From: Lachnospiraceae bacterium
GTDB taxonomy: Bacteria > Bacillota > Clostridia > Lachnospirales > Lachnospiraceae
Direction: 5' to 3'
Assembly: GCA_022800815.1 (NCBI GenBank)
Contig: JAAWRC010000001.1
Coordinates: 62,001-126,000 of the forward strand
DNA length: 64,000 bases
Below, piece after piece: positions 280 to 30,669 of this stretch (positions are counted from its first letter, which is position 1; each line of letters begins with the position of its first letter). Below the pieces are notes generated by a model, which worked only from the letters and a program-made list of their open reading frames with translations, was not told where the DNA came from and made no database searches. Position numbers and translations under genes: made by a program.

Positions 280-318
280 AAAAAAGACCGAGGCTAAAAA
301 CAGGCGTCAGTCTTTTTT
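280..318. terminator. Bidirectional intrinsic terminator between the Gx gene and rnpB
   Basis: An A-tract followed by GACCGAGGC pairs imperfectly with GCGTCAGTC followed by a T-tract, with one G:U pair and one mismatch. The hairpin has U-runs on both strands, so it can end transcripts of the forward gene and of reverse-strand rnpB. Confidence 0.6.
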
Positions 319-319
319 C

Positions 320-660
320 GAGCAGAACTATAAGCCGGGTTCTGTCGTGAATGGCCATCTATCTAGGCCTGCCGTCACCGACAGGCTCAAGCGACCTACC
401 CGAAAGCAGACGGGCCGCCTTATGCTCTCTGTTCGGTCTTGCTTCGGATGGGGTTTACATATGCCCCCCCTGTTGCCAGGAGGGCGGTAGTCTCTTACAC
501 TGCCCTTCCAACCTTACCGGCCGAAGGCCGGCGGTACATTTCTGTTGCACTGTCCTTGGAGTCGCCTCCACCGGATGTTATCCGGCATCCTGCCCTGTGA
601 AGCCCGGACTTTCCTCGTCCGCCATCCCTTGGGGGGCGTCCGCAGCCATTCATTCTGCTC
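320..660 (-). ncRNA. rnpB: RNase P RNA (rnpB), bacterial type A
   Basis: On the reverse strand the RNA starts with GAGCAGAA (forward 660-653) and ends with UUCUGCUC (forward 327-320), which pair as helix P1. Between them are the conserved blocks of RNase P RNA: GAGGAAAGTCCGGGC near the 5' end, the GAAGGGC-AGUGUAAGAGACUACCG segment, the ACAGAACCCGGCTTA 3' region and a GGTAGGTCGC-type segment. The length of about 340 nt is normal for a type A RNA. It is the catalytic RNA that removes 5' leaders from tRNA precursors. Short reading frames that cross it on both strands are not genes. Confidence 0.95.
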
Positions 661-667
661 AGGTGGT

Positions 668-2764: not shown

Positions 2765-2978
2765 GGTTAGAAATCCCATATCATACAATATATAAAATAT
2801 TACGACGGAAATTCATAAAATATAAGTAAAAACTGAACCTGCAATGGATTCTAAGCTTTAGCTCACCATACTCAGAACAATTATACTTTCAGAAAGAGCA
2901 TTTGTCAATTGAGGAATGGCTGGTAGGTTTTGTATAAAGCCCGAAAAATTTCTGGAGAGTTCCGCATAAAAATATGCC

Positions 2979-3401
2979 GTGGGATACGTGGCGGGCGTGT
3001 TTGACCTTTTTCATGTCGGGCATTTGAACCTGCTCAGGAGGGCGAAGGAGCAGTGCGGATATCTGATTGTCGGAGTGGTGTCGGACGAGCAGGTCATGAA
3101 GGAGAAAAAGACGATGCCGGTGATTTCCTTCGAAGAGCGCCTGGAGATCGTGCGGGCATGCCGCTACGTGGACGAGGCGGTGGAGATTCCCATTGGCAGG
3201 CCTTCCACGAAAGACGCCTACAGAATGTACCGGTTTGATGCGCAGTTTTCCGGGAGTGATTATGAAAACGATCCGTCCTGGTTGTCCCAGCGGACCTACC
3301 TCAGACAGCACGGTTCCGATTTGGTGTTCTTTCCGTACACGTCGTCCGTCAGTTCGACCGATTTGAAACATCAGCTTAAACGAGAGGGGAAGCCGGAATA
3401 G
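2979..3401 (+). pseudogene. Glycerol-3-phosphate-type cytidylyltransferase, start codon lost
   Basis: The 140-residue frame has the cytidylyltransferase signature GVFDLFHVGHLNLL close to its start and later the SSVSST motif, both as in TagD-type enzymes that join CTP to glycerol phosphate or a similar alcohol phosphate. The body looks intact. The only possible start is GTG at 2979, which has no spaced ribosome-binding site. A good GGAGA (2954-2958) lies the right distance from ATAAAAATATGCC (2966-2978), which looks like ATG-AAA-AAA-TAT-GCC with two bases lost. I infer the start was destroyed. The next gene starts directly after its stop. Low-level use of the GTG cannot be excluded. Confidence 0.55.
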
Positions 3402-21489: not shown

Positions 21490-21567
21490 TTTTAATGTTG
21501 CGAATGAGCTTAAGTTGAACATTGCCCCTTCGGGGAGTTTTTGCGGGCTGGGAGGACGGAAGATTCA

Positions 21568-23313
21568 ATGGACACCGGAAAAGAAAAGCTGAAAGCACTG
21601 TGGCGGGACAAACGTTCCTGGAAGATCCGCCTGCCTCTGGCGGCGCTCTGTGCCTTTTCTTGCGTATTCACCTTTCTAATATTTGGCCCCTGCGAGATCT
21701 ATGCCCAGAATGTCCAGGAGCTGTCCTTTTCCTTCTCCGCCCTGCTGCAGGTACTGCTTGGCGCCGGGGCCCTCGTCTTTGCGGCGCTGTTTGGGCTCCT
21801 GCTCCTTCTGCGAGGGAAAATTTTTAATTTTGTGGTCAGTTTCCTGTTTGCGGTGACGCTGGCAGGGTATCTGCAGGGAAATTTCTGGAACACCGACCAC
21901 GGAGCGCTGACCGGGGATGCGGTGAACTGGCTGAACTATAAAGTTCCCATGCTTTTAAACGGCGCTGTTTGGCTGGGCGTGTTTGCCGCCGTTCTTCTTC
22001 TGTTGTATTTCAGCCGCAGAATATGGACCATGGGGATCGAGCTGGTCTGCGTGGTCCTGATCGGGGCGCAGATGGTCGCACTCGTGTCCCTGACGGCCGG
22101 GAGCGGTTCCGGCCAGCTCTGGAAGGCCGGCCGGGAGAAGGAGGCGCTTACGAGGGACGGCATTTACGAGGTGTCTGGAAAGAAGAACGTGATCGTGTTC
22201 CTGTTGGACCGCCTGGACAACCAGTACATGGATGCGGCGCTGGAAAAATATCCGGAGCTGGAGGAGGGGCTTGACGGCTTCACCTATTACCATGACTTTA
22301 CCGGAAGCTATGCCAATACCAGGCCGTCGATCGCCTATCTCCTGACGGGCGTTCAGCATGATTACAGCGTCTCCTGGAAGGATTACTTCCACAGGGCGTG
22401 GACGGAGCCGGTTTACACATTGCTGCCGGATATTCACGAGGCCGGTTACCGGACAAAGGTTTACACGGACTGCGGGTACGTGTTCGGCGAACCTCAGGAC
22501 GTGAGCGGCTTTGTGGACAACGTCCGCAAGATCAGTGAAAAAAAGGTCCGGAGGGCACCGTTGCTTGAGAAAATGCTGGACCTGTCCTTCTATCGCTACG
22601 CTCCTGAGTCGATGAAGCCTTATTTTCAGATCAGCACTTCGGATTTAAACGGCATTGCGGTGTCGGAGGACGATTCCGGCGAGGACCAGCTGTTTGCCGT
22701 GGACGACGCCGTTTTCTGGGGCGGCTACCGGGAGAACGGACTGACGGTGGAGGATGAGGGAAACGGTTCCTTTATCTTTTATCATTTGAACGGCGCCCAT
22801 GATCCTTTTACGATTGATGCGGATGCGGAGCCCGCTGCGGGGAGTACGAGGGAGGAGCAGATCGTCGGCAATTTCAGGATGATCTTCCGGTATATGGAGG
22901 AACTGAAGGAGAAGGGGCTTTATGAGGATGCCACGATCATCATCACGGCAGACCACGGCCGCCCGCCAAAGCCGACGGGAGATCTGAGCGGAATCAGTGA
23001 GAGCCGGGTCAGCACGCTGATGATCAAGCCCGCCGGCAAGGGGGCGGAGGGCCCCATGAAGATTTCCAACAAGCAGGTGTGCCAGGACAATCTCCGGGCA
23101 TCCATCGCCGGTTATTTCGGACTGGAAACCGGTGAGTATGGCCGGACGGTGGAATCCATCGGGGAACATGAGCAGATGACCAGGACCCTGTGGATGCGGA
23201 CGGAGGGGAAGGGAGAAAAGAGGCTGTATACCTTTGAGATCACGGGGGATGCAAATGATTTCGCCAACTGGAAGGTGGTTGGAGAGATCAAGATGGAGTA
23301 TACCGGGATATAG
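21568..23313 (+). CDS. Membrane sulfatase/alkaline-phosphatase-superfamily transferase (LtaS-like)
   Basis: Membrane enzyme of 581 residues. Four or five N-terminal helices (about 20-195) precede an extracellular alkaline-phosphatase-superfamily domain. Visible metal or nucleophile positions are D214 (VIVFLLDRLD), T251 in ANTRPSIAYLLTG as the probable phospho-acceptor, and D462-H463 in ITADHGR. The layout is that of lipoteichoic acid synthases and phosphoethanolamine or phosphoglycerol transferases, but the sequence is not a plain LtaS. The ATG at 21568 follows GGGAGGA; an in-frame ATG-like start at 21541 does not. It opens a cluster with a glycerophosphotransferase and CDP-choline-type genes, so it probably polymerises or decorates a phosphate-containing surface polymer. 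Confidence 0.75.
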   Translation: MDTGKEKLKALWRDKRSWKIRLPLAALCAFSCVFTFLIFGPCEIYAQNVQELSFSFSALLQVLLGAGALVFAALFGLLLLLRGKIFNFVVSFLFAVTLAGYLQGNFWNTDHGALTGDAVNWLNYKVPMLLNGAVWLGVFAAVLLLLYFSRRIWTMGIELVCVVLIGAQMVALVSLTAGSGSGQLWKAGREKEALTRDGIYEVSGKKNVIVFLLDRLDNQYMDAALEKYPELEEGLDGFTYYHDFTGSYANTRPSIAYLLTGVQHDYSVSWKDYFHRAWTEPVYTLLPDIHEAGYRTKVYTDCGYVFGEPQDVSGFVDNVRKISEKKVRRAPLLEKMLDLSFYRYAPESMKPYFQISTSDLNGIAVSEDDSGEDQLFAVDDAVFWGGYRENGLTVEDEGNGSFIFYHLNGAHDPFTIDADAEPAAGSTREEQIVGNFRMIFRYMEELKEKGLYEDATIIITADHGRPPKPTGDLSGISESRVSTLMIKPAGKGAEGPMKISNKQVCQDNLRASIAGYFGLETGEYGRTVESIGEHEQMTRTLWMRTEGKGEKRLYTFEITGDANDFANWKVVGEIKMEYTGI

Positions 23314-23385: not shown

Positions 23386-23940
23386 ATGAGGAAGGTGCTT
23401 TCCTTTCTGTATTTTTTCATCTGCGCCTCGCTGCTCTTTTCAGTGACTGCGCTGGCCTACATCGACCCCTCTGCCATGACCTACATCATCCAGATCATCG
23501 CCGGCGTGGCGATTGCGGCCGGTGCGGCCTTTGGCTTCTATTTCCGCAAGCTAAAGAGGAAATTTTCCCGTTTCGGAAAAAAGAAGGATCATGCGGTCTC
23601 GTATGGGGACGACATGGATGACGACGACACGGGCTTTGGCGACTACGAGATCGAGGGCTTTGCGGGGCCCTCCTCGGAGACGGCGGCTTCTTTTGCGGGG
23701 ACTGCGCCGGAGACGGTCCCTCTTGCCGGTGAGACGGCGAGGGCTGCGGCGTTTTCCACTGTCGTCAGGGAGCCGGACCTTGCTTTCCGGACCGCCAGGA
23801 CGGACCCCTATGACGAGTCCGGGGGCGAGGGGGGCCTTTTGGCGGAGAACCGGGAGCTCAGGCGTCTTTTGGCCGAGGAACGTCGGAACGTGGAGGAACT
23901 AAAACGGGCGCTGCACATCTGTACGGCCCCCAAAAGGTGA
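23386..23940 (+). CDS. Unknown small membrane protein with acidic tail
   Basis: Not recognised. The 184-residue product has a signal-like N-terminus (residues 3-22, ending ALAY), a second hydrophobic segment (about 27-50) and a strongly basic stop-transfer KLKRKFSRFGKKK. Next come an acidic stretch DDMDDDDTGFGDYE, a low-complexity Ala/Thr/Pro region and a C-terminal helix that may coil (ENRELRRLLAEERRNVEELK). The ATG at 23386 follows AAGGAGA. Its stop overlaps the GTG of the signal peptidase gene, so the two are coupled. The IDPSAMTYIIQIIAG segment is like that of small proteins I recall near surface-polysaccharide genes, but no function can be assigned. Confidence 0.6.
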   Translation: MRKVLSFLYFFICASLLFSVTALAYIDPSAMTYIIQIIAGVAIAAGAAFGFYFRKLKRKFSRFGKKKDHAVSYGDDMDDDDTGFGDYEIEGFAGPSSETAASFAGTAPETVPLAGETARAAAFSTVVREPDLAFRTARTDPYDESGGEGGLLAENRELRRLLAEERRNVEELKRALHICTAPKR

Positions 23941-24410
23941 GGCACTGGCGACGCCTGCTGATTCCTGCGGCGGCAATCCTTCTGGCGGCGCTTTTAAACT
24001 GCTTTTTCGTTCTGAACGCCTATGTGCCTTCCGGCTCCATGGTACTGGGAAACCGTCTGGCTTACCGCAAAGGCGCACCAGGGGTGGGGGACGTGGTTTT
24101 TTTTCATCATCCGGAAGCGGGGGAGAGACGGTGCCTGGTTAAACGCATTGTCGCCGGGCCCGGCCAGACCTTTGCCCTCCGTGACGGGAGAGTATACATT
24201 GACGGACGGCTTCTGGAGGAACCGTACGTGGAGGAGTTTTCCGGAGACGGATACCCGGAGACTCTCGTGCCGGAGGGCTGCTATGTCGTTTTGGGGGACA
24301 ACCGGACGGAATCCGGGGATTCCCGCTTTTGGGAGGACCCCTTCGTGCGCAGGGAGGATATCCTGGCAAAGGGCGTGTTCGTCTACTTTCCAAAATTCTG
24401 TAAGTTGTAG
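23937..24410 (+). CDS. Type I signal peptidase
   Basis: Short serine protease of the SipS/LepB family (157 residues), anchored by one N-terminal helix (about 6-27) and facing outward. The catalytic Ser34 lies in PSGSM and the general base Lys69 in RCLVKRIV; the later GDNRTESGDSR block is the conserved box E. The start is GTG at 23937, overlapping the preceding stop. The gene sits inside the surface-polymer cluster, directly before the YidC-glycerophosphotransferase fusion (11 bp), so it may process a dedicated substrate of that cluster, possibly the unknown protein encoded just upstream. It is surely a signal peptidase; its dedicated role is inference. Confidence 0.9.
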   Translation: MRHWRRLLIPAAAILLAALLNCFFVLNAYVPSGSMVLGNRLAYRKGAPGVGDVVFFHHPEAGERRCLVKRIVAGPGQTFALRDGRVYIDGRLLEEPYVEEFSGDGYPETLVPEGCYVVLGDNRTESGDSRFWEDPFVRREDILAKGVFVYFPKFCKL

Positions 24411-24421
24411 AGGAGTTAACC

Positions 24422-26506
24422 ATGAATCTGATCAACACCATCGTGGGCGTGCCGCTGGGCTGGCTGATGTGGGCGTGCTACCAGGTCTTCCATCATTACG
24501 GCCTGGCGCTTATTCTGTTCACGCTGCTTACCAAGGTCGTCATGTTTCCCATATCCCTGCTGGTGCAGAAGAATTCCATCAAGATGGTCCGCATGAAGCC
24601 GCAGTTAGACGCCCTGCGTTATCAGTACGTGGATGACAAGGATGCGTTTCTCGATGCCCAGTCGGCGCTTTATAAGAAGGAACATTACAGCCCGATGGCC
24701 GGGGTCTGGCCCCTTTTGCTCCAGCTCCCCATCATCTTCGGGCTGCTCGACGTCGTCTATAAACCGTTAAAGCATATTCTGCACCTTCCGGCGCAGGTTC
24801 AAAGTGCGTTCGTGGAAAAAACGGCGGAGCTTTTGGGGGTTGCCGCCGGGGAGTTGGGGACGACCGCCCAGCTTGCCGCAGTGGAGCAGGTGCGGAGCGT
24901 GCCGGACGCCTTCCTGGCGATCCCCGGCGCAGGGGAGGCCGTCGCCCGGATTCAGGGAATGCGTCTGGACTTTTTGGGCCTGGATCTCACGAAGATGCCC
25001 GATGTGGCGGTGATGAGCGCGGTACTCCTCGTTCCGATTCTGGCGGGGGCGTCGGCCCTCCTCATGTGCTGGACCCAGAACAAGATCAACGTGCTGCAGA
25101 TTGAGCAGAACAAGCTCTCCCAGTGGGGCATGACGGTTTTCATGATTGCCTTCTCCGGTCTCTTCGCTTTCATCGTCCCGGCGGCGGTGGGGCTCTATTG
25201 GACCTTCGGCAACCTGTTTTCCATCGGGGTCACGTATCTGGTGAACGTGGTCTATCCCCCAAAAAAATATATTGATTACAAGGTTTTGAAGGAGATGAAG
25301 CAGTCCGTCGCCGAGGAGCGGAGCGAGAAGAAAAAGAACGCCAGGCTGGCGAAGAAATATTATAAGGAATTCTTTGCGCCTGATAACGTAAAGAATATGA
25401 AGGTGATGTTTTATTCCGAGGGAAGCGGGTTTTATAAGTATTTCCGAAGCCTGATCGAGGCGCTTTTGCAAAATACGGACATCACGATTCACTATGTGAC
25501 CAGCGACCCGGAGGACGCCATTTTCCAGAAGGGGGAACCGAGGATCCGTCCGTACTATGCGGATGAAACCCGCTTGATCCCGCTGATGATGAAGCTGGAG
25601 GCGGACATCGTGGTCATGACGACGCCGGACCTGGAGAAGTACCACATCAAGCGGTCCAGGGTCCGGAAAAACGTGGAGTACATTTTCATGGACCATGGCT
25701 GCTCCAGTGACAACCTGGCTTACCGAACCGGAGCCCTGGACGCCTACGACACCCTGTTCGTGGTCAGCAGGGAGCAGGCCATGGAGGCCCGGGCCATTGA
25801 GAAGCTGCGGCACACCAGGAGAAAGCGCATCATTGAGTTCGGCTACGGGCTGATTGACGACATGATCGCCGCTTACGAGGCCATGGACAAGGTGGAGAAT
25901 CCGAAAAAGACGATCCTCATCGCCCCGTCCTGGCAGTATGACAACATCATGGATTCCTGCCTGGACGATCTGGTCGAGGCATTGTACGGGCAGGGCTACC
26001 GCATCATTATCCGTCCCCATCCCCAGTACGTGCGCCGCTTTCCCATGCAGATGAAGGCGGTCATGGAACGCTACCGGGACAGAATGTCGGAGGATTTCAT
26101 GATTGAGACGGACTTTTCCTCCAATGTGACGGTGTACACGGCCGATCTGGTGATCACGGACTGGAGCGGAATCGCCTACGAGTTTTCCTTTACGACGGAC
26201 AAGCCCTCCCTCTTTATCAACACGAAGCTAAAGGTGGTCAACGAGGATTATCAGAAGATACCGCTCGTTCCCTTTGACATCACGGCCAGGTCCAAGGTGG
26301 GCCGCCAGGTGGAAAAGAGCGAGGTGAAGGATCTGGCCCCCGTCGTGGAAGAACTGCTGGCGGGCCAGGAGGAGTACCGGGAACGGATCATCGCCCTGAA
26401 GCGGCAGCACTTTTACAATCTGGGGCACAGCGGAGAGGTGGGCTGTCAGTATATTCAGCATCGCCTGGCCAGACGGTACGGAAAAAAGCCCGGGGCGAGC
26501 GCCTGA
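24422..26506 (+). CDS. YidC/Oxa1 insertase fused to CDP-glycerol glycerophosphotransferase
   Basis: Single unbroken frame of 694 residues holding two usually separate proteins. Residues 1-290 are a YidC/Oxa1 membrane insertase: a first helix pair with the basic residue in LLTKVVMFPISLL, a charged cytoplasmic hairpin (QKNSIKMVRMKPQLDALRYQ), and the later WTQNKINVLQIEQNKLSQW and PAAVGLYWTFGNLFSI. A basic linker (about 295-322) leads to a TagF/TagB-type domain (about 323-690) with IAPSWQYDNI, RPHPQ near 530 and DWSGIAYEF at 580-588. The first half inserts membrane proteins; the second transfers glycerol phosphate from CDP-glycerol in teichoic acid synthesis. The ATG at 24422 follows GAGG. The fusion would fix the transferase on the inner membrane face. 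Confidence 0.85.
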   Translation: MNLINTIVGVPLGWLMWACYQVFHHYGLALILFTLLTKVVMFPISLLVQKNSIKMVRMKPQLDALRYQYVDDKDAFLDAQSALYKKEHYSPMAGVWPLLLQLPIIFGLLDVVYKPLKHILHLPAQVQSAFVEKTAELLGVAAGELGTTAQLAAVEQVRSVPDAFLAIPGAGEAVARIQGMRLDFLGLDLTKMPDVAVMSAVLLVPILAGASALLMCWTQNKINVLQIEQNKLSQWGMTVFMIAFSGLFAFIVPAAVGLYWTFGNLFSIGVTYLVNVVYPPKKYIDYKVLKEMKQSVAEERSEKKKNARLAKKYYKEFFAPDNVKNMKVMFYSEGSGFYKYFRSLIEALLQNTDITIHYVTSDPEDAIFQKGEPRIRPYYADETRLIPLMMKLEADIVVMTTPDLEKYHIKRSRVRKNVEYIFMDHGCSSDNLAYRTGALDAYDTLFVVSREQAMEARAIEKLRHTRRKRIIEFGYGLIDDMIAAYEAMDKVENPKKTILIAPSWQYDNIMDSCLDDLVEALYGQGYRIIIRPHPQYVRRFPMQMKAVMERYRDRMSEDFMIETDFSSNVTVYTADLVITDWSGIAYEFSFTTDKPSLFINTKLKVVNEDYQKIPLVPFDITARSKVGRQVEKSEVKDLAPVVEELLAGQEEYRERIIALKRQHFYNLGHSGEVGCQYIQHRLARRYGKKPGASA

Positions 26507-26624: not shown

Positions 26625-28385
26625 ATGAACATTCGAGAGAGGGACATCCTGCGCTCACTGTGGAAAGAACCCTATGAAAATCAGCGGATTCTGGCGGAAA
26701 AGAGCGGTTTTTCCCTGGGGGCGGTAAACCGCTGCCTGAAAAATTTGAGGGAGAATGGCTATCTGGACGGGACCCTGCGGCTGACGGAGAAATCGAACCG
26801 TGAAATTCTGGCCGGAAAGCCGAAAAACGCCGTGATCCTGGCGGCCGGCTTTGGAATGCGCATGGTGCCGATCAACATGGAAATTCCTAAGGCTTTTCTG
26901 GAGGTGAAGGGGGAGTTGCTGATTGAGAGGCTTATCCGGCAGCTTCATGCGGTCGGCATCCGGGAGATTTACGTGGTGGTCGGATACAGGAAGGAGCGGT
27001 TTGATTACCTGATCGACCGTTTTGGCGTCCGGCTGCTGGTCAACCCGGATTATGGGACGAAAAACAACCTGTATTCCCTGAAACGGGCGGAGAATTATTT
27101 GTCCAACACCTACATTGTCCCCTGCGACATCTGGTGCGCCGTAAATCCCTTCAGCGCCTGCGAGCTATATTCCTGGTACATGGTGGGCGACGGGAAGGAC
27201 GGGAACAGCATGGTCCGCGTAAACCGCAAAATGGAGCTGGCCTTCGTTCCGGAGGACGCAGAGGGAAACTCCATGGTGGGGATCTCCTATCTTCTGCGGG
27301 AGGATGCGGTGCGGCTGAAAGAACAGATGGAGGCGCTTTGTTGCAGGAAGCAGGGGGACGGCCTGTTCTGGGAAGCGGCCCTCTATGACGGGGGGAAGAT
27401 GACGGTCCCCGCCCGCATCGTGCGCCAGAACCAGGTGATGGAGATCAACACCTATGAGCAGCTTCGGGATCTGGACGGTCATTCCAGCCAGCTCCAGTCG
27501 GAGAAGCTTGAGATGATCACGGAGGTTCTCGGCGTGTCCATGAATGACATCACTGACATCTCGGCCCTGAAAAAAGGGATGACGAACCGCTCCTTCCTCT
27601 TTTCCTGTCGGGGAAGCGCCTACATCATGCGCATTCCGGGGGAGGGGACGGAACGGCTCATCAACCGCCGGGAGGAGGCTTCGGCGTACCGGGTGGTCGG
27701 GGGAAAAGGCATCTGCGAAGACGTTGTCTCGCTCAATCCGGACAACGGGTATAAGATCAGCCGCTTTATTGAAGGGGCCAGAACCTGCGATCCCATGAAT
27801 CCGGCGGAGACGGCAGCCTGCATGCGGAAGCTGCGAAAGTTCCACCGGCTGGACCTGAGGGTGGGGCATGAGTTTGACCTTTTCGGTCACATTGATTTTT
27901 ATGAGAGTCTCTGGGGCGGAAGCCCCTCCGCCTACGGGGATTACCGGCGGACCAGGGAGCGGGTGTTCTCCCTGCGCCCCTTTATCGACGGGCAGGTGAA
28001 GAAAAAAGCGCTGACCCACATCGATGCGGTGCCGGACAACTTCCTTCTCTTTGAGAACGAGAGGGGGGAGGAGGAAATCCGGCTCATCGACTGGGAGTAT
28101 GCGGCGATGCAGGACCCCCACGTGGACATTGCCATGTTCTGCATTTACGCCCTGTATGATCGGGAGCAGGTTGATGGGCTCATCGATCAGTACTTTGAGG
28201 AGGGCTGTCCCGACAAGACGAGGGTCAAGATCTACTGCTACATCGCGGTCTGCGGGCTGCTCTGGAGCAACTGGTGCGAGTACAAACGGAATCTGGGGGT
28301 CGAATTCGGAGAATATTCCCTGTGGCAGTACCGCTATGCGAAGGATTATTACCGCATTGTGGAGGAGACGCTGGGACTGGAATGA
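26625..28385 (+). CDS. Winged helix + LicC-like nucleotidyltransferase + LicA-like choline kinase fusion
   Basis: Three-part protein of 586 residues. Residues 1-60 are a MarR-like winged helix (QRILAEKSGFSLGAVNRCLK). About 66-290 is a sugar/choline-phosphate nucleotidyltransferase with LAAGFGMRMVPINMEIPKAF at 72-91. About 300-586 is a choline/ethanolamine kinase-like domain with H465, D467 and N472 (HIDAVPDN) and D489 in LIDWEYA. It would phosphorylate choline or a similar amino alcohol and activate the product with CTP. The ATG has GGAGA ten bases upstream. The licC-type gene follows after 15 bp. The DNA-binding-like head is odd for an enzyme; it may sense substrate or act as a dimer piece. 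Glucose-1-phosphate-type substrates are less likely given the kinase. Confidence 0.85.
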   Translation: MNIRERDILRSLWKEPYENQRILAEKSGFSLGAVNRCLKNLRENGYLDGTLRLTEKSNREILAGKPKNAVILAAGFGMRMVPINMEIPKAFLEVKGELLIERLIRQLHAVGIREIYVVVGYRKERFDYLIDRFGVRLLVNPDYGTKNNLYSLKRAENYLSNTYIVPCDIWCAVNPFSACELYSWYMVGDGKDGNSMVRVNRKMELAFVPEDAEGNSMVGISYLLREDAVRLKEQMEALCCRKQGDGLFWEAALYDGGKMTVPARIVRQNQVMEINTYEQLRDLDGHSSQLQSEKLEMITEVLGVSMNDITDISALKKGMTNRSFLFSCRGSAYIMRIPGEGTERLINRREEASAYRVVGGKGICEDVVSLNPDNGYKISRFIEGARTCDPMNPAETAACMRKLRKFHRLDLRVGHEFDLFGHIDFYESLWGGSPSAYGDYRRTRERVFSLRPFIDGQVKKKALTHIDAVPDNFLLFENERGEEEIRLIDWEYAAMQDPHVDIAMFCIYALYDREQVDGLIDQYFEEGCPDKTRVKIYCYIAVCGLLWSNWCEYKRNLGVEFGEYSLWQYRYAKDYYRIVEETLGLE

Positions 28386-28400
28386 GGAGGACGAAAGAAA

Positions 28401-29111
28401 ATGAACAGGGTAGAGCGGGCCGTTATTGTTGCTGCGGGGAAGGGAACTCGGATGCGGCCGGTTACCTGTGAGACTCCCAAGCCGCTTGTCAGGGTGAACG
28501 GGGTCCGCATGATTGACACGGTGCTCTCGGGACTTAAGGAGAACGGGATTTCCGAAATTTACATTGTGGTCGGATATTTGAAGGAGCAGTTTGAGGCGCT
28601 CAAAGAAGTTTATCCAGATATAAGGTTCATTGAAAATCCCTATTATGCGGAGTGCAACAACATTTCTTCCCTCTATGTCGCCAGGGAGTATCTGGAGGAC
28701 GTGATGATTCTGGACGGGGACCAGCTGATTCACCGTCCGAGGGTGTTGTTTCCGGAATTTGAGCGCTCCGGCTATCAGGCGGTCTGGACGGACGTGCACA
28801 CCGACGAATGGCTCCTGACGGTGAGGGGGGGCGTGGTCACCTCCTGCAGCCGGACCGGCGGTGCGGGCGGGTGGCGGCTTTTCAGTGTCTCCCGCTGGAA
28901 CCGGGAGGACGGAAGACGGCTTAAAAGGCATTTGGAGCTGGAATTTGAGCAGAGACGGAACCGGCAGCTTTACTGGGACGACGTCGCTTTGTTCCGATAT
29001 CCAAAGGAGTATCGGCTGGGGATATTTAAAATGGAACCGGGAGACATTGTAGAGGTGGACAGCCTGGACGAGCTGGCGGCGCTGGACCAAAGCTATCAGA
29101 GATATTTATGA
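28401..29111 (+). CDS. LicC-type CTP:phosphocholine cytidylyltransferase
   Basis: Nucleotidyltransferase of 236 residues, close to the LicC length. The N-terminal signature AAGKGTRMRP (11-20) with the following ETPKPL binds the nucleotide. ENPYYAECNNISSLYVA (about 77-93) resembles the substrate loop of LicC, and DGD at 108-110 is the metal-binding site. It should make CDP-choline, or a similar CDP-alcohol, from CTP. It sits between the kinase fusion and the choline/betaine-type carrier, which supports choline as substrate. The ATG follows GAGGAGG. It is a second cytidylyltransferase beside the one in the fusion, so the two may serve different substrates. Confidence 0.8.
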   Translation: MNRVERAVIVAAGKGTRMRPVTCETPKPLVRVNGVRMIDTVLSGLKENGISEIYIVVGYLKEQFEALKEVYPDIRFIENPYYAECNNISSLYVAREYLEDVMILDGDQLIHRPRVLFPEFERSGYQAVWTDVHTDEWLLTVRGGVVTSCSRTGGAGGWRLFSVSRWNREDGRRLKRHLELEFEQRRNRQLYWDDVALFRYPKEYRLGIFKMEPGDIVEVDSLDELAALDQSYQRYL

Positions 29112-29127: not shown

Positions 29128-30669
29128 ATGAGAAGATATAAGAATGCGGAAGGCGGGAGAGGGAGGATCGACTGGGCCATTTTTCTGGTTCCCATTGTGA
29201 CGGTCGTGACGCTCAGCGTCCTGTTCGCCTGCTTTCCCGTAAAGTCCAACGAGGTGCTGAGCGGGGTTCGCTCCCTGTTCGGGGATACCTTCGGGGTCTT
29301 CTATCTGGCCGTGGGGCTGGGCGTGTTCCTGACCTCCCTGTTCGTGGCCGTCTCCAGATATGGAACCATTGTGCTGGGAGATCCCGGGGAGAAGCCGAAA
29401 TTTTCTTTTTTTGCCTGGGGCTCGATGATGTTCACGGCGGGACTGGCGGCGGATATCCTGTTCTATTCCTTTTCCGAGTGGGTCATGTACGCCGCAGACC
29501 CCCACATCGCCGAGATGGGAGGTATACAGGAATGGGCCGGCGTTTATCCGGTGTTCCACTGGAGCCTGATACCCTGGGGCTTTTACCTGATGCTGGCGGT
29601 GGCCTTTGGGTTCATGCTCCACGTCAGAAAGAGAAGCAGGCAGAAATACTCCGAGGCGTGCCGGCCGCTTCTGGGAAAGCACACCGACGGCGTGCCGGGC
29701 AGACTGATCGACCTGCTGGCGGTGTTTGCACTCCTGGCGGGGACGGCCACCACCTTCGCCCTGGCCACCCCCCTGATGTCCGGCATCCTGGAGGAGCTTT
29801 TCCACATCCGGCTTGACCGGAGGGTGGTCACGGTGGCCATTCTCCTGGTGACCTGCGCCGTGTACACCTGTTCTCTGCTGAAGGGTTTTAAGGGCATCAG
29901 CATCCTGGCAAAATCCTGCATCTGGTTTTTTTTCGGACTGCTGGCGTACGTGCTGCTGTTCGGCGGGGAGGCAAGGTACATCATCGAGACCGGCTTTTCC
30001 TCCCTGGGCAGAATGGTTCAGAACTTTTTTGAGCTCTCCACCTTCACGGACCCGGAGCGGACGACCTCCTTTCCTCAGAACTGGACGATTTTCTACTGGT
30101 CTTACTGGATGGTCTGGTGCGTGGCGGCCCCGTTTTTCATCGGGAGCATCTCCAGGGGAAGGACCGTCCGCCAGACGATTCTGGGCGGCTACGTGTTTGG
30201 CGTGGGGTCGACCATCGTCAGCTTCGTCATCCTGGGAAACTATTCGCTGGGGAAACAGGTGCTGGAGGGCGTGGATTTCATCGGCCGGTATCAGCAAAGC
30301 GGCGATTTATACAGTCTGATTCTCTCCATCATTCAGACGCTGCCCCACGCATGGTTTGTGCTTTTGCTGGTCCTTGTCACGATGGTGGCTTTTTATGCCA
30401 CCTCCTTCGACTCGATTGCGCTGATCGCCTCCTGCTACAGCTACCGGGAGCTTGGGGAAGGCCAGACGCCCCACCGGGCGGTCATGCTGGCCTGGTGCCT
30501 GCTGCTGATTGCGTTCCCGATTGCGCTCGTGTTTTCGGAGAGCTCCATGAGCAATCTGCAGTCGGTCAGCATCATTGCCGCTTTTCCGGTGGGAATGATC
30601 ATTCTTCTGATTATCGCCAGCTTTTTCAAGGATGCGAATGCGCTCTTTCGCCAGCGGCCCGGCCGGTGA
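29128..30669 (+). CDS. BCCT family choline/glycine betaine-type transporter
   Basis: Twelve-helix carrier of the betaine/choline/carnitine family, 513 residues. The family signature region around FYWSYWMVWCVAAPFFIG (about 317-334), followed by ISRGRTVRQ, is plain, as is MFTAGLAADILFYSFSEW (about 98-115), the substrate- and sodium-site helix of BCCTs. The ATG follows GGGGAGG, 16 bp after the licC-type gene. Position after choline-kinase and cytidylyltransferase genes suggests it imports choline for surface modification, taking the place of LicB, rather than for osmotic stress. Its short C-terminus lacks the long osmosensing tail of BetP. Choline versus betaine cannot be settled by sequence reading. 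Confidence 0.88.
   Translation: MRRYKNAEGGRGRIDWAIFLVPIVTVVTLSVLFACFPVKSNEVLSGVRSLFGDTFGVFYLAVGLGVFLTSLFVAVSRYGTIVLGDPGEKPKFSFFAWGSMMFTAGLAADILFYSFSEWVMYAADPHIAEMGGIQEWAGVYPVFHWSLIPWGFYLMLAVAFGFMLHVRKRSRQKYSEACRPLLGKHTDGVPGRLIDLLAVFALLAGTATTFALATPLMSGILEELFHIRLDRRVVTVAILLVTCAVYTCSLLKGFKGISILAKSCIWFFFGLLAYVLLFGGEARYIIETGFSSLGRMVQNFFELSTFTDPERTTSFPQNWTIFYWSYWMVWCVAAPFFIGSISRGRTVRQTILGGYVFGVGSTIVSFVILGNYSLGKQVLEGVDFIGRYQQSGDLYSLILSIIQTLPHAWFVLLLVLVTMVAFYATSFDSIALIASCYSYRELGEGQTPHRAVMLAWCLLLIAFPIALVFSESSMSNLQSVSIIAAFPVGMIILLIIASFFKDANALFRQRPGR

Follow-up and report, generated by a model that had tools for sequence, protein, structure and literature searches.

A YidC-type domain joined in one chain to a divergent PF04464 transferase, a candidate component of surface headgroup decoration in gut Clostridia

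In the window studied here, which is the whole stretch of 64,000 nucleotides from a Lachnospiraceae genome, a single frame on the forward strand joins a YidC/Oxa1 domain to a transferase of the PF04464 family. Judged from its homologues, this fusion is a real, selected two-domain membrane protein. The adjoining genes support its assignment to a headgroup-decoration cassette, as genes predicted to activate small headgroups with CTP are often found beside it: for choline in this organism, and for aminoethylphosphonate or others elsewhere. We think that the best explanation of the whole arrangement, to which we give a probability of about 0.4, is that the headgroup would be loaded inside the cell, passed across the membrane by the YidC domain and delivered outside by a sulfatase-fold enzyme. 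The features involved are the following, with positions counted from the first letter of the window.

21571..23313, forward strand: sulfatase-fold membrane enzyme, LtaS/EptA-like (PF00884, 38.2 bits against a cut-off of 25)
23386..23940, forward strand: small membrane protein with a YIDP motif, without a Pfam family
23937..24410, forward strand: signal peptidase I (PF10502 and TIGR02227 over cut-off), overlapping the YIDP gene by 4 bases
24422..26506, forward strand: YidC/Oxa1 domain (residues 26-275), linker and PF04464 transferase (323-664) in one chain, from the open reading frame and Pfam
24533..24535, forward strand: codon of K38, the groove position, aligned with the groove arginine of 3wo7 and of E. 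coli YidC
25076..25108, forward strand: QNxxNxLQxxQ motif, codons 219-229, between transmembrane helices 3 and 4, typical of the fusion clade
25247..25387, forward strand: linker, codons 276-322, rich in K and R (14 in residues 276-325)
25388..26503, forward strand: transferase half, codons 323-694 (PF04464, with a subfamily model of its own)
26625..28385, forward strand: winged HTH, nucleotidyltransferase and choline kinase (LicC-LicA-like; PF13412, PF12804 and PF01633 over cut-off), predicted CDP-choline supply
28401..29111, forward strand: second LicC-like nucleotidyltransferase (PF12804 and PF00483 over cut-off)
29128..30669, forward strand: BCCT transporter (PF02028, 402 bits), predicted choline uptake, in the place of LicB

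The fusion frame starts with an ATG that has AGGAG just upstream and extends over 694 amino acids without an internal stop. Residues 26-275 match 60KD_IMP (YidC, PF02096) with 119 bits against a cut-off of 35, covering positions 1-162 of the 163 in the profile, and residues 323-664 match Glyphos_transf (PF04464) with 49.5 bits against 22.1. The first-pass annotation had described one chain with no stop or frame break between its halves, and this description holds: both domains lie in a single open frame in 81 of the 81 loci formed by the window and the best 80 of at least 535 confirmed relatives. The motifs RPHPQ and DWSGIAYEF, read in the same annotation, are both present in the frame. The fusion is not rare, since a scan of genome contigs gave at least 595 pattern matches, among which at least 535 were confirmed as relatives. 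The search for both Pfam families in one protein, which had been proposed as a check, also found the pair in 16 of 299 genomes of the family, with a single open frame in 14 and a frame broken by contig ends in the other two (G251 and G216); as this sample holds roughly one genome per genus and at most three candidates per genome were scored in a first look, carriers are possibly undercounted. One-frame copies with 88-89% identity occur in two of ten other congeners. Several families of Clostridia are represented among the best 80 of at least 535 relatives, together with two Treponema MAGs; isolates are present as well, such as Roseburia inulinivorans DSM 16841 (L077), Bittarella massiliensis (L076) and Ruminococcus flavefaciens YRD2003 (L117). 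The family is patchy, as 6 of the 398 genomes in a wider sample of the phylum gave a transferase match at E ≤ 1e-10.

Both halves are under purifying selection, with dN/dS values of 0.080-0.100 for residues 1-290 and 0.074-0.076 for residues 326-694 in the three congeners compared. The probability of an assembly join or of a chance read-through is negligible. The congener copies, the one-frame homologues (isolates included among the 81 loci) and the dN/dS values rule out an assembly artefact, purifying selection spans both halves and the linker, and the fusions form one clade in a tree of YidC domains. A phage or defence origin was also rejected: none of 538 pattern matches in viral contigs was confirmed as a relative, PHROGs gave no match and PADLOC gave none for three proteins of the window.

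A crude hydropathy scan of the YidC half gives four long stretches, the last of which is probably two helices, and the C1 loop is kept. Among 98 fusions, 96 have K at position 38, one has R and one a gap. This position is N or Q in all 16 sequences of a distant split type described below; in 25 ordinary YidC proteins of related genomes it is Y in 10, N in six, K in six, R in two and V in one. In this ordinary set 25 of 30 sequences were kept, the five dropped having been missed by our pattern. The QNxxNxLQxxQ motif is also conserved in the fusions (Q219 in 98, N220 in 95, N223 in 97, L225 in 98, Q226 in 97 and Q229 in 94 of 98), and it is absent from type B and from ordinary YidC in the alignment against these 98. 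With K or R at position 38 in 97 of 98 and a dN/dS of 0.08-0.10, the predicted groove of the fusion YidC is not decayed. In the YidC-domain tree the fusions (38 rows), the split-type YidC-sulfatases (16) and the ordinary YidC proteins (25) each stand on their own side of a branch; it is a quick tree in which long branches join the clades, and it should be read with a long-branch warning.

Whether a second, housekeeping yidC lies by rnpA had been left as a question by the first-pass annotation. A separate PF02096 gene does exist in the window genome, on a different contig and flanked by YidD and Jag, with rnpA outside the fetched stretch. A separate YidC frame was found in 29 of the 31 genomes with a fused or split form, being interrupted in two of the 29 (G135 and G109); the two genomes without it, G251 and G052, are represented by assemblies 79% and 84% complete.

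The fusion belongs to a cluster of seven genes on the same strand, separated by gaps of -4 to 118 bases. The LtaS-like neighbour mentioned as a possible partner in the earlier annotation is indeed a protein of the sulfatase fold (PF00884) at 21571, with counterparts in 63 of the 81 loci (window and best 80 of at least 535 relatives). Its start is more likely the ATG at 21571 than the mechanically assigned TTG at 21541, and it has four hydrophobic stretches. Residues D223, T260/T269, H415/H420 and D471-H472 (numbered from TTG 21541) show 90% conservation or more among 65 relatives, and we take the conserved D, T and D-H positions to be metal and nucleophile sites; against the solved LtaS and EptA chains, no sequence match was obtained at E up to 1. 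The YIDP protein, for which ATG 23386 is a likelier start than the mechanical TTG, looks like a protein with a cleavable signal (cut predicted between ALA and YIDPS), followed by one transmembrane helix and a cytosolic tail. The possible signal-peptidase site immediately ahead of YIDP and the overlapping signal peptidase I gene (23386-24410) may represent a dedicated processing pair. On the other side of the fusion, the protein encoded at 26625-28385 carries winged HTH, nucleotidyltransferase and choline kinase all in one chain. LicD matches are present in 15 of 18 carriers, including the window genome and excepting G290, G216 and G051; in the window genome they lie on contigs C31, C71 and C72 and none lies on C27, so the cluster has no LicD. 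Elsewhere in the window, a class A RNase P RNA (315-661, minus strand) is the sole Rfam match, and a small cytidylyltransferase-like frame (2970-3398; TagD-like, 66.9 bits, below cut-off) stands about 21 kb upstream of the fusion.

The neighbours in relatives were counted with models built from clusters of the same loci and with score limits set by ourselves. Besides the sulfatase, the 81 loci (window and best 80 of at least 535 relatives) have the YIDP protein in 72, a LicC-like protein in 45, signal peptidase in 31 and the choline set in 23. With stricter scores, a phnS2-like binding protein was counted in 12 of these 81, phosphonate synthesis in 5 and a nucleotidyltransferase-PLP enzyme in 4; aminoethylphosphonate synthesis had been assigned to 11 of 81 in a first count, reduced to 5 by the stricter scores and by counting the nucleotidyltransferase-PLP enzyme apart. 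Identification of the latter as a PntC-aminotransferase was rejected, as its matches (below cut-offs) are those of a nucleotidyltransferase in one chain with a CobD/HisC-like PLP enzyme. In 37 of the 81 loci the flanks reach 7 kb or more on each side; of these, 36 have the YIDP protein, 30 the sulfatase and 16 no headgroup genes. Since relatedness is uneven among the window and MAG loci, we use the count by clusters: the 98 loci fall into 32 clusters at 60% identity, of which 28 have the YIDP protein, 24 a LicC-like protein, 22 any headgroup set (choline, aminoethylphosphonate, NTP-transferase-PLP-enzyme or phnS2-like) and 19 the sulfatase.

The link to headgroups is also seen at the level of genomes. 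Of 299 genomes, 33 have a phosphonopyruvate decarboxylase that passes the TIGR03297 cut-off; 14 of these belong to the 29 carriers of the fused or split form and 19 to the 270 remaining genomes (odds ratio 12, p = 6e-8 by a one-sided Fisher test). The window genome, which is of the choline type, has none that passes. In the cluster of R. inulinivorans (L077), predicted to produce aminoethylphosphonate, the aminotransferase, the PEP mutase and the decarboxylase each exceed their NCBIfam cut-offs, and a transporter in L053 has its best matches with the phnS2/U2/T2 models, all below cut-off. At L087:14495-16318, a nucleotidyltransferase is joined to an iron alcohol dehydrogenase beside a PEP mutase and a decarboxylase, and this protein may make (activated) hydroxyethylphosphonate. 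One genome, G283, has four fusion copies, each with different headgroup neighbours: a nucleotidyltransferase-choline-kinase gene adjoins the fusion in L203, decarboxylase and PEP mutase adjoin it in L136, and other nucleotidyltransferase or aminotransferase genes lie near it in L135 and L134. We think that these four paralogous fusions are a natural test of donor specificity. Choline-binding repeats were not informative: none was found in the window genome at E ≤ 0.001, 9 of 18 carriers have some, and G283 gives 48 matches.

A model of the window-type transferase gives 158-201 bits on 16 split-type transferases, compared with at most 17 bits on the ordinary TagF-like frames in the fetched loci, which reach at most 26 with the split-type model. 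By these scores the predicted fusion transferase is a divergent PF04464 subfamily, grouped with the split-type transferases and apart from ordinary TagF. A search of solved structures with this half found no relative, only one chance match with an E value of 0.77. From the gene neighbourhoods, it is fairly likely that the donor in this organism is CDP-choline, and in relatives CMP-aminoethylphosphonate or a similar activated small headgroup, and not CDP-glycerol. Its products would probably be surface molecules carrying a small group, for instance phosphocholine. Neither choline nor aminoethylphosphonate offers a free hydroxyl from which a chain could grow.

The proposal of the first-pass annotation that this half builds a glycerophosphate polymer was not sustained. 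A TagF-like polymerase, which would make poly(glycerol phosphate) from CDP-glycerol and pass it to the LtaS-like enzyme, agrees with the PF04464 match over cut-off and with the RPHP motif, and CDP-glycerol or a relative may be the donor in view of the weak TagD-like matches (TIGR01518 at E ≤ 0.001, mostly below cut-off) in 14 of 18 carriers. CDP-glycerol synthase is, however, over cut-off in just 2 of these 18, with the window genome not among them, the PF04464 score of the fusion is 49.5 bits when other frames in carriers reach up to 413, and the adjoining genes supply choline or phosphonate headgroups, as CDP-choline or activated phosphonates. We consider such a polymerase very unlikely.

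Distant relatives show the same parts joined in other ways. In the split type, the transferases have 23-27% identity to the transferase half of the fusion, and their N-terminus carries LLYIDPGTG-like residues followed by a helix; the link thus suggested between the small YIDP protein and the split-type transferase is based mainly on a short motif. In 14 of 16 split-type loci (both exceptions are in G004), the neighbour is a protein of about 790-1090 amino acids that is YidC at its N-terminal part and sulfatase-like at its C-terminal part; of five such large proteins scanned, PF02096 was matched in five and PF00884 in three. By our own reading, headgroup genes lie near 11 of the 16 loci. YidC and sulfatase in one protein of about 860-930 amino acids can be seen at L130:9340-12123, L128:5623-8358 and L124:3905-6493, and this fusion is as unusual as that of YidC with the transferase. 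Another split-type locus, L129:8373-15784, has BCCT, LicC-like and choline-kinase genes, and two of its proteins resemble what we take to be trimethylamine/corrinoid methyltransferase parts. In L080, L083 and L140 it is the sulfatase that carries a YIDP part at its N-terminus. The four modules are therefore found in different pairs (YidC-transferase, YidC-sulfatase, YIDP-transferase and YIDP-sulfatase), from which we deduce that YidC was joined once to a cytosolic and once to an extracytoplasmic enzyme. A third arrangement, type C, consists of a lone transferase (G679, L218:8298-9461) with 34% identity and 387 bits with the fusion-type model, in a cluster with two sulfatase-like proteins (the one tested is PF00884-positive) and aminoethylphosphonate genes. 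This transferase has no YidC near it, and the genome contains a single ordinary one, which means that an additional YidC is not needed in every case. L218 represents a minimal form; transferase, sulfatase and headgroup genes may make up the core of the system, to which two lineages would have added YidC and YIDP.

A YidC domain joined to a cytosolic enzyme in one lineage and to an extracytoplasmic one in the other is best explained as lying between the two. LtaS and EptA take their headgroups from lipid donors. PptA, a phosphocholine (ChoP) transferase of the alkaline phosphatase superfamily, is also described with a lipid donor (PMC10434233), and YidC is reported to scramble glycerophospholipids in liposomes (PMC10491306), along a simulated path that follows the insertion groove. 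This intermediate position, the scrambling and the lipid-donor transferases together lead to the proposal that we favour. At the inner leaflet, the transferase would attach the headgroup to a carrier lipid, the polar headgroup-lipid would cross along the hydrophilic groove of the YidC domain, and the sulfatase-fold enzyme would use it outside as donor for decorating a surface polymer, in the manner of PptA, EptA or LtaS. These steps of loading, crossing and delivery are less certain than the identity of the donor. It is a tentative idea, and in our opinion one that may well be wrong, that a YidC-family domain was turned into a dedicated path for headgroup-lipids, serving an inner transferase in one lineage and an outer sulfatase in another. 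Several findings go against a lipid path: no additional YidC accompanies the transferase, sulfatases and phosphonate genes of G679, 16 of the 37 well-flanked loci (of the window and best 80) have no headgroup genes nearby, the LicD of the window genome could use CDP-choline, and all 16 split-type sequences have N or Q at the groove position.

The YidC fold might instead do no more than tether the transferase at the inner membrane face, beside the sulfatase and the YIDP protein, with another protein flipping the headgroup-lipid or the decorated polymer. Enzymes of the PF04464 family act at the membrane surface, the basic linker suits a cytosolic tail with a tethered enzyme, and type C apparently works without an extra YidC. 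Still, between 94 and 98 of the 98 fusions retain the groove lysine and other polar residues, a stricter conservation than in the 25 ordinary YidC proteins, and the split type joins YidC to the sulfatase; as the transferase has a helix of its own there, an anchor alone does not explain the presence of YidC. We regard a mere anchor or scaffold as possible, if doubtful. It is unlikely, on the other hand, that the YidC half is a dedicated insertase for its partners (the sulfatase and the YIDP protein), the fusion coupling insertion with the enzyme. Both roles, anchor and insertase for a partner, had been suggested in the first-pass annotation. Membership of the YidC family, retention of the C1 loop and the encoding of membrane-protein partners alongside would fit this role, but 29 of 31 carriers have an ordinary YidC (two with interrupted frames) and the sulfatases of type C occur without an extra one. 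The re-joining of domains in relatives favours a path shared by the inner and outer enzymes, as in the load, pass and deliver proposal.

In the literature searched, which was mostly open journals with most subscription journals outside its scope, no paper describing a YidC-transferase fusion was found, in agreement with the first-pass annotation, which knew of no described system of this kind. That annotation had also allowed that the fusion might be a long-known common variant in a genome with no other YidC; another YidC does exist, and the fusion is not rare, yet no paper on it was found. We think that the family is a candidate for the transferase and the export route of surface phosphonate and phosphocholine pathways in gut Clostridia. 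New ChoP pathways may remain undiscovered, according to PMC10434233, and the steps after formation of the C-P bond in Pnt phosphonyl-tailoring clusters are called enigmatic in PMC6697681. If our proposal were true, it would fill in the transfer step that many clusters for surface phosphonate and phosphocholine lack, as well as provide a case of physiological lipid flipping by a relative of YidC. The fusion hints at a possible second job of the YidC membrane machine, and a YidC domain joined to a headgroup transferase, or elsewhere to a surface sulfatase, lends itself to asking whether lipid scrambling is used in cells. Isolates carrying the fusion exist, such as Roseburia inulinivorans DSM 16841.

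Compared with known systems, the YidC half is the same whole domain as in YidC/Oxa1 insertases (PF02096; YidC2 of B. halodurans, 3wo6/3wo7, and E. coli YidC, 3wvf/5mg3), with the conserved core aligned and K38 at the groove arginine, but a cytosolic transferase stands where the usual tail does. It differs from the ordinary YidC of related genomes in having its own QNxxNxLQxxQ motif and a separate clade. With TagF/TagB (PF04464) the transferase half shares a Pfam match over cut-off and the RPHP and DWS motifs, whereas its subfamily is distinct, it is joined to YidC and a CDP-glycerol synthase over cut-off is present in just 2 of 18 carriers. Like LtaS, EptA and PptA, the sulfatase-fold neighbour is a PF00884 membrane enzyme with conserved D-H and threonine positions, although in a distant lineage it is joined to YidC. 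The Lic-1 pathway (LicA, LicB, LicC and LicD) is echoed by the predicted choline kinase, LicC-like cytidylyltransferases and choline-type transporter adjoining the fusion, while BCCT replaces LicB and LicD is absent from the cluster, which has the YidC-transferase, the YIDP protein and the sulfatase instead. With the Pnt clusters of PMC6697681, loci of relatives share a PEP mutase joined to a cytidylyltransferase, a decarboxylase and an aminotransferase, which lie there beside the fusions. The transferases named in passages of that paper are LicD-like phosphotransferases or glycosyltransferases, and the words "insertase" and "glycerophosphotransferase" are absent from its main text.
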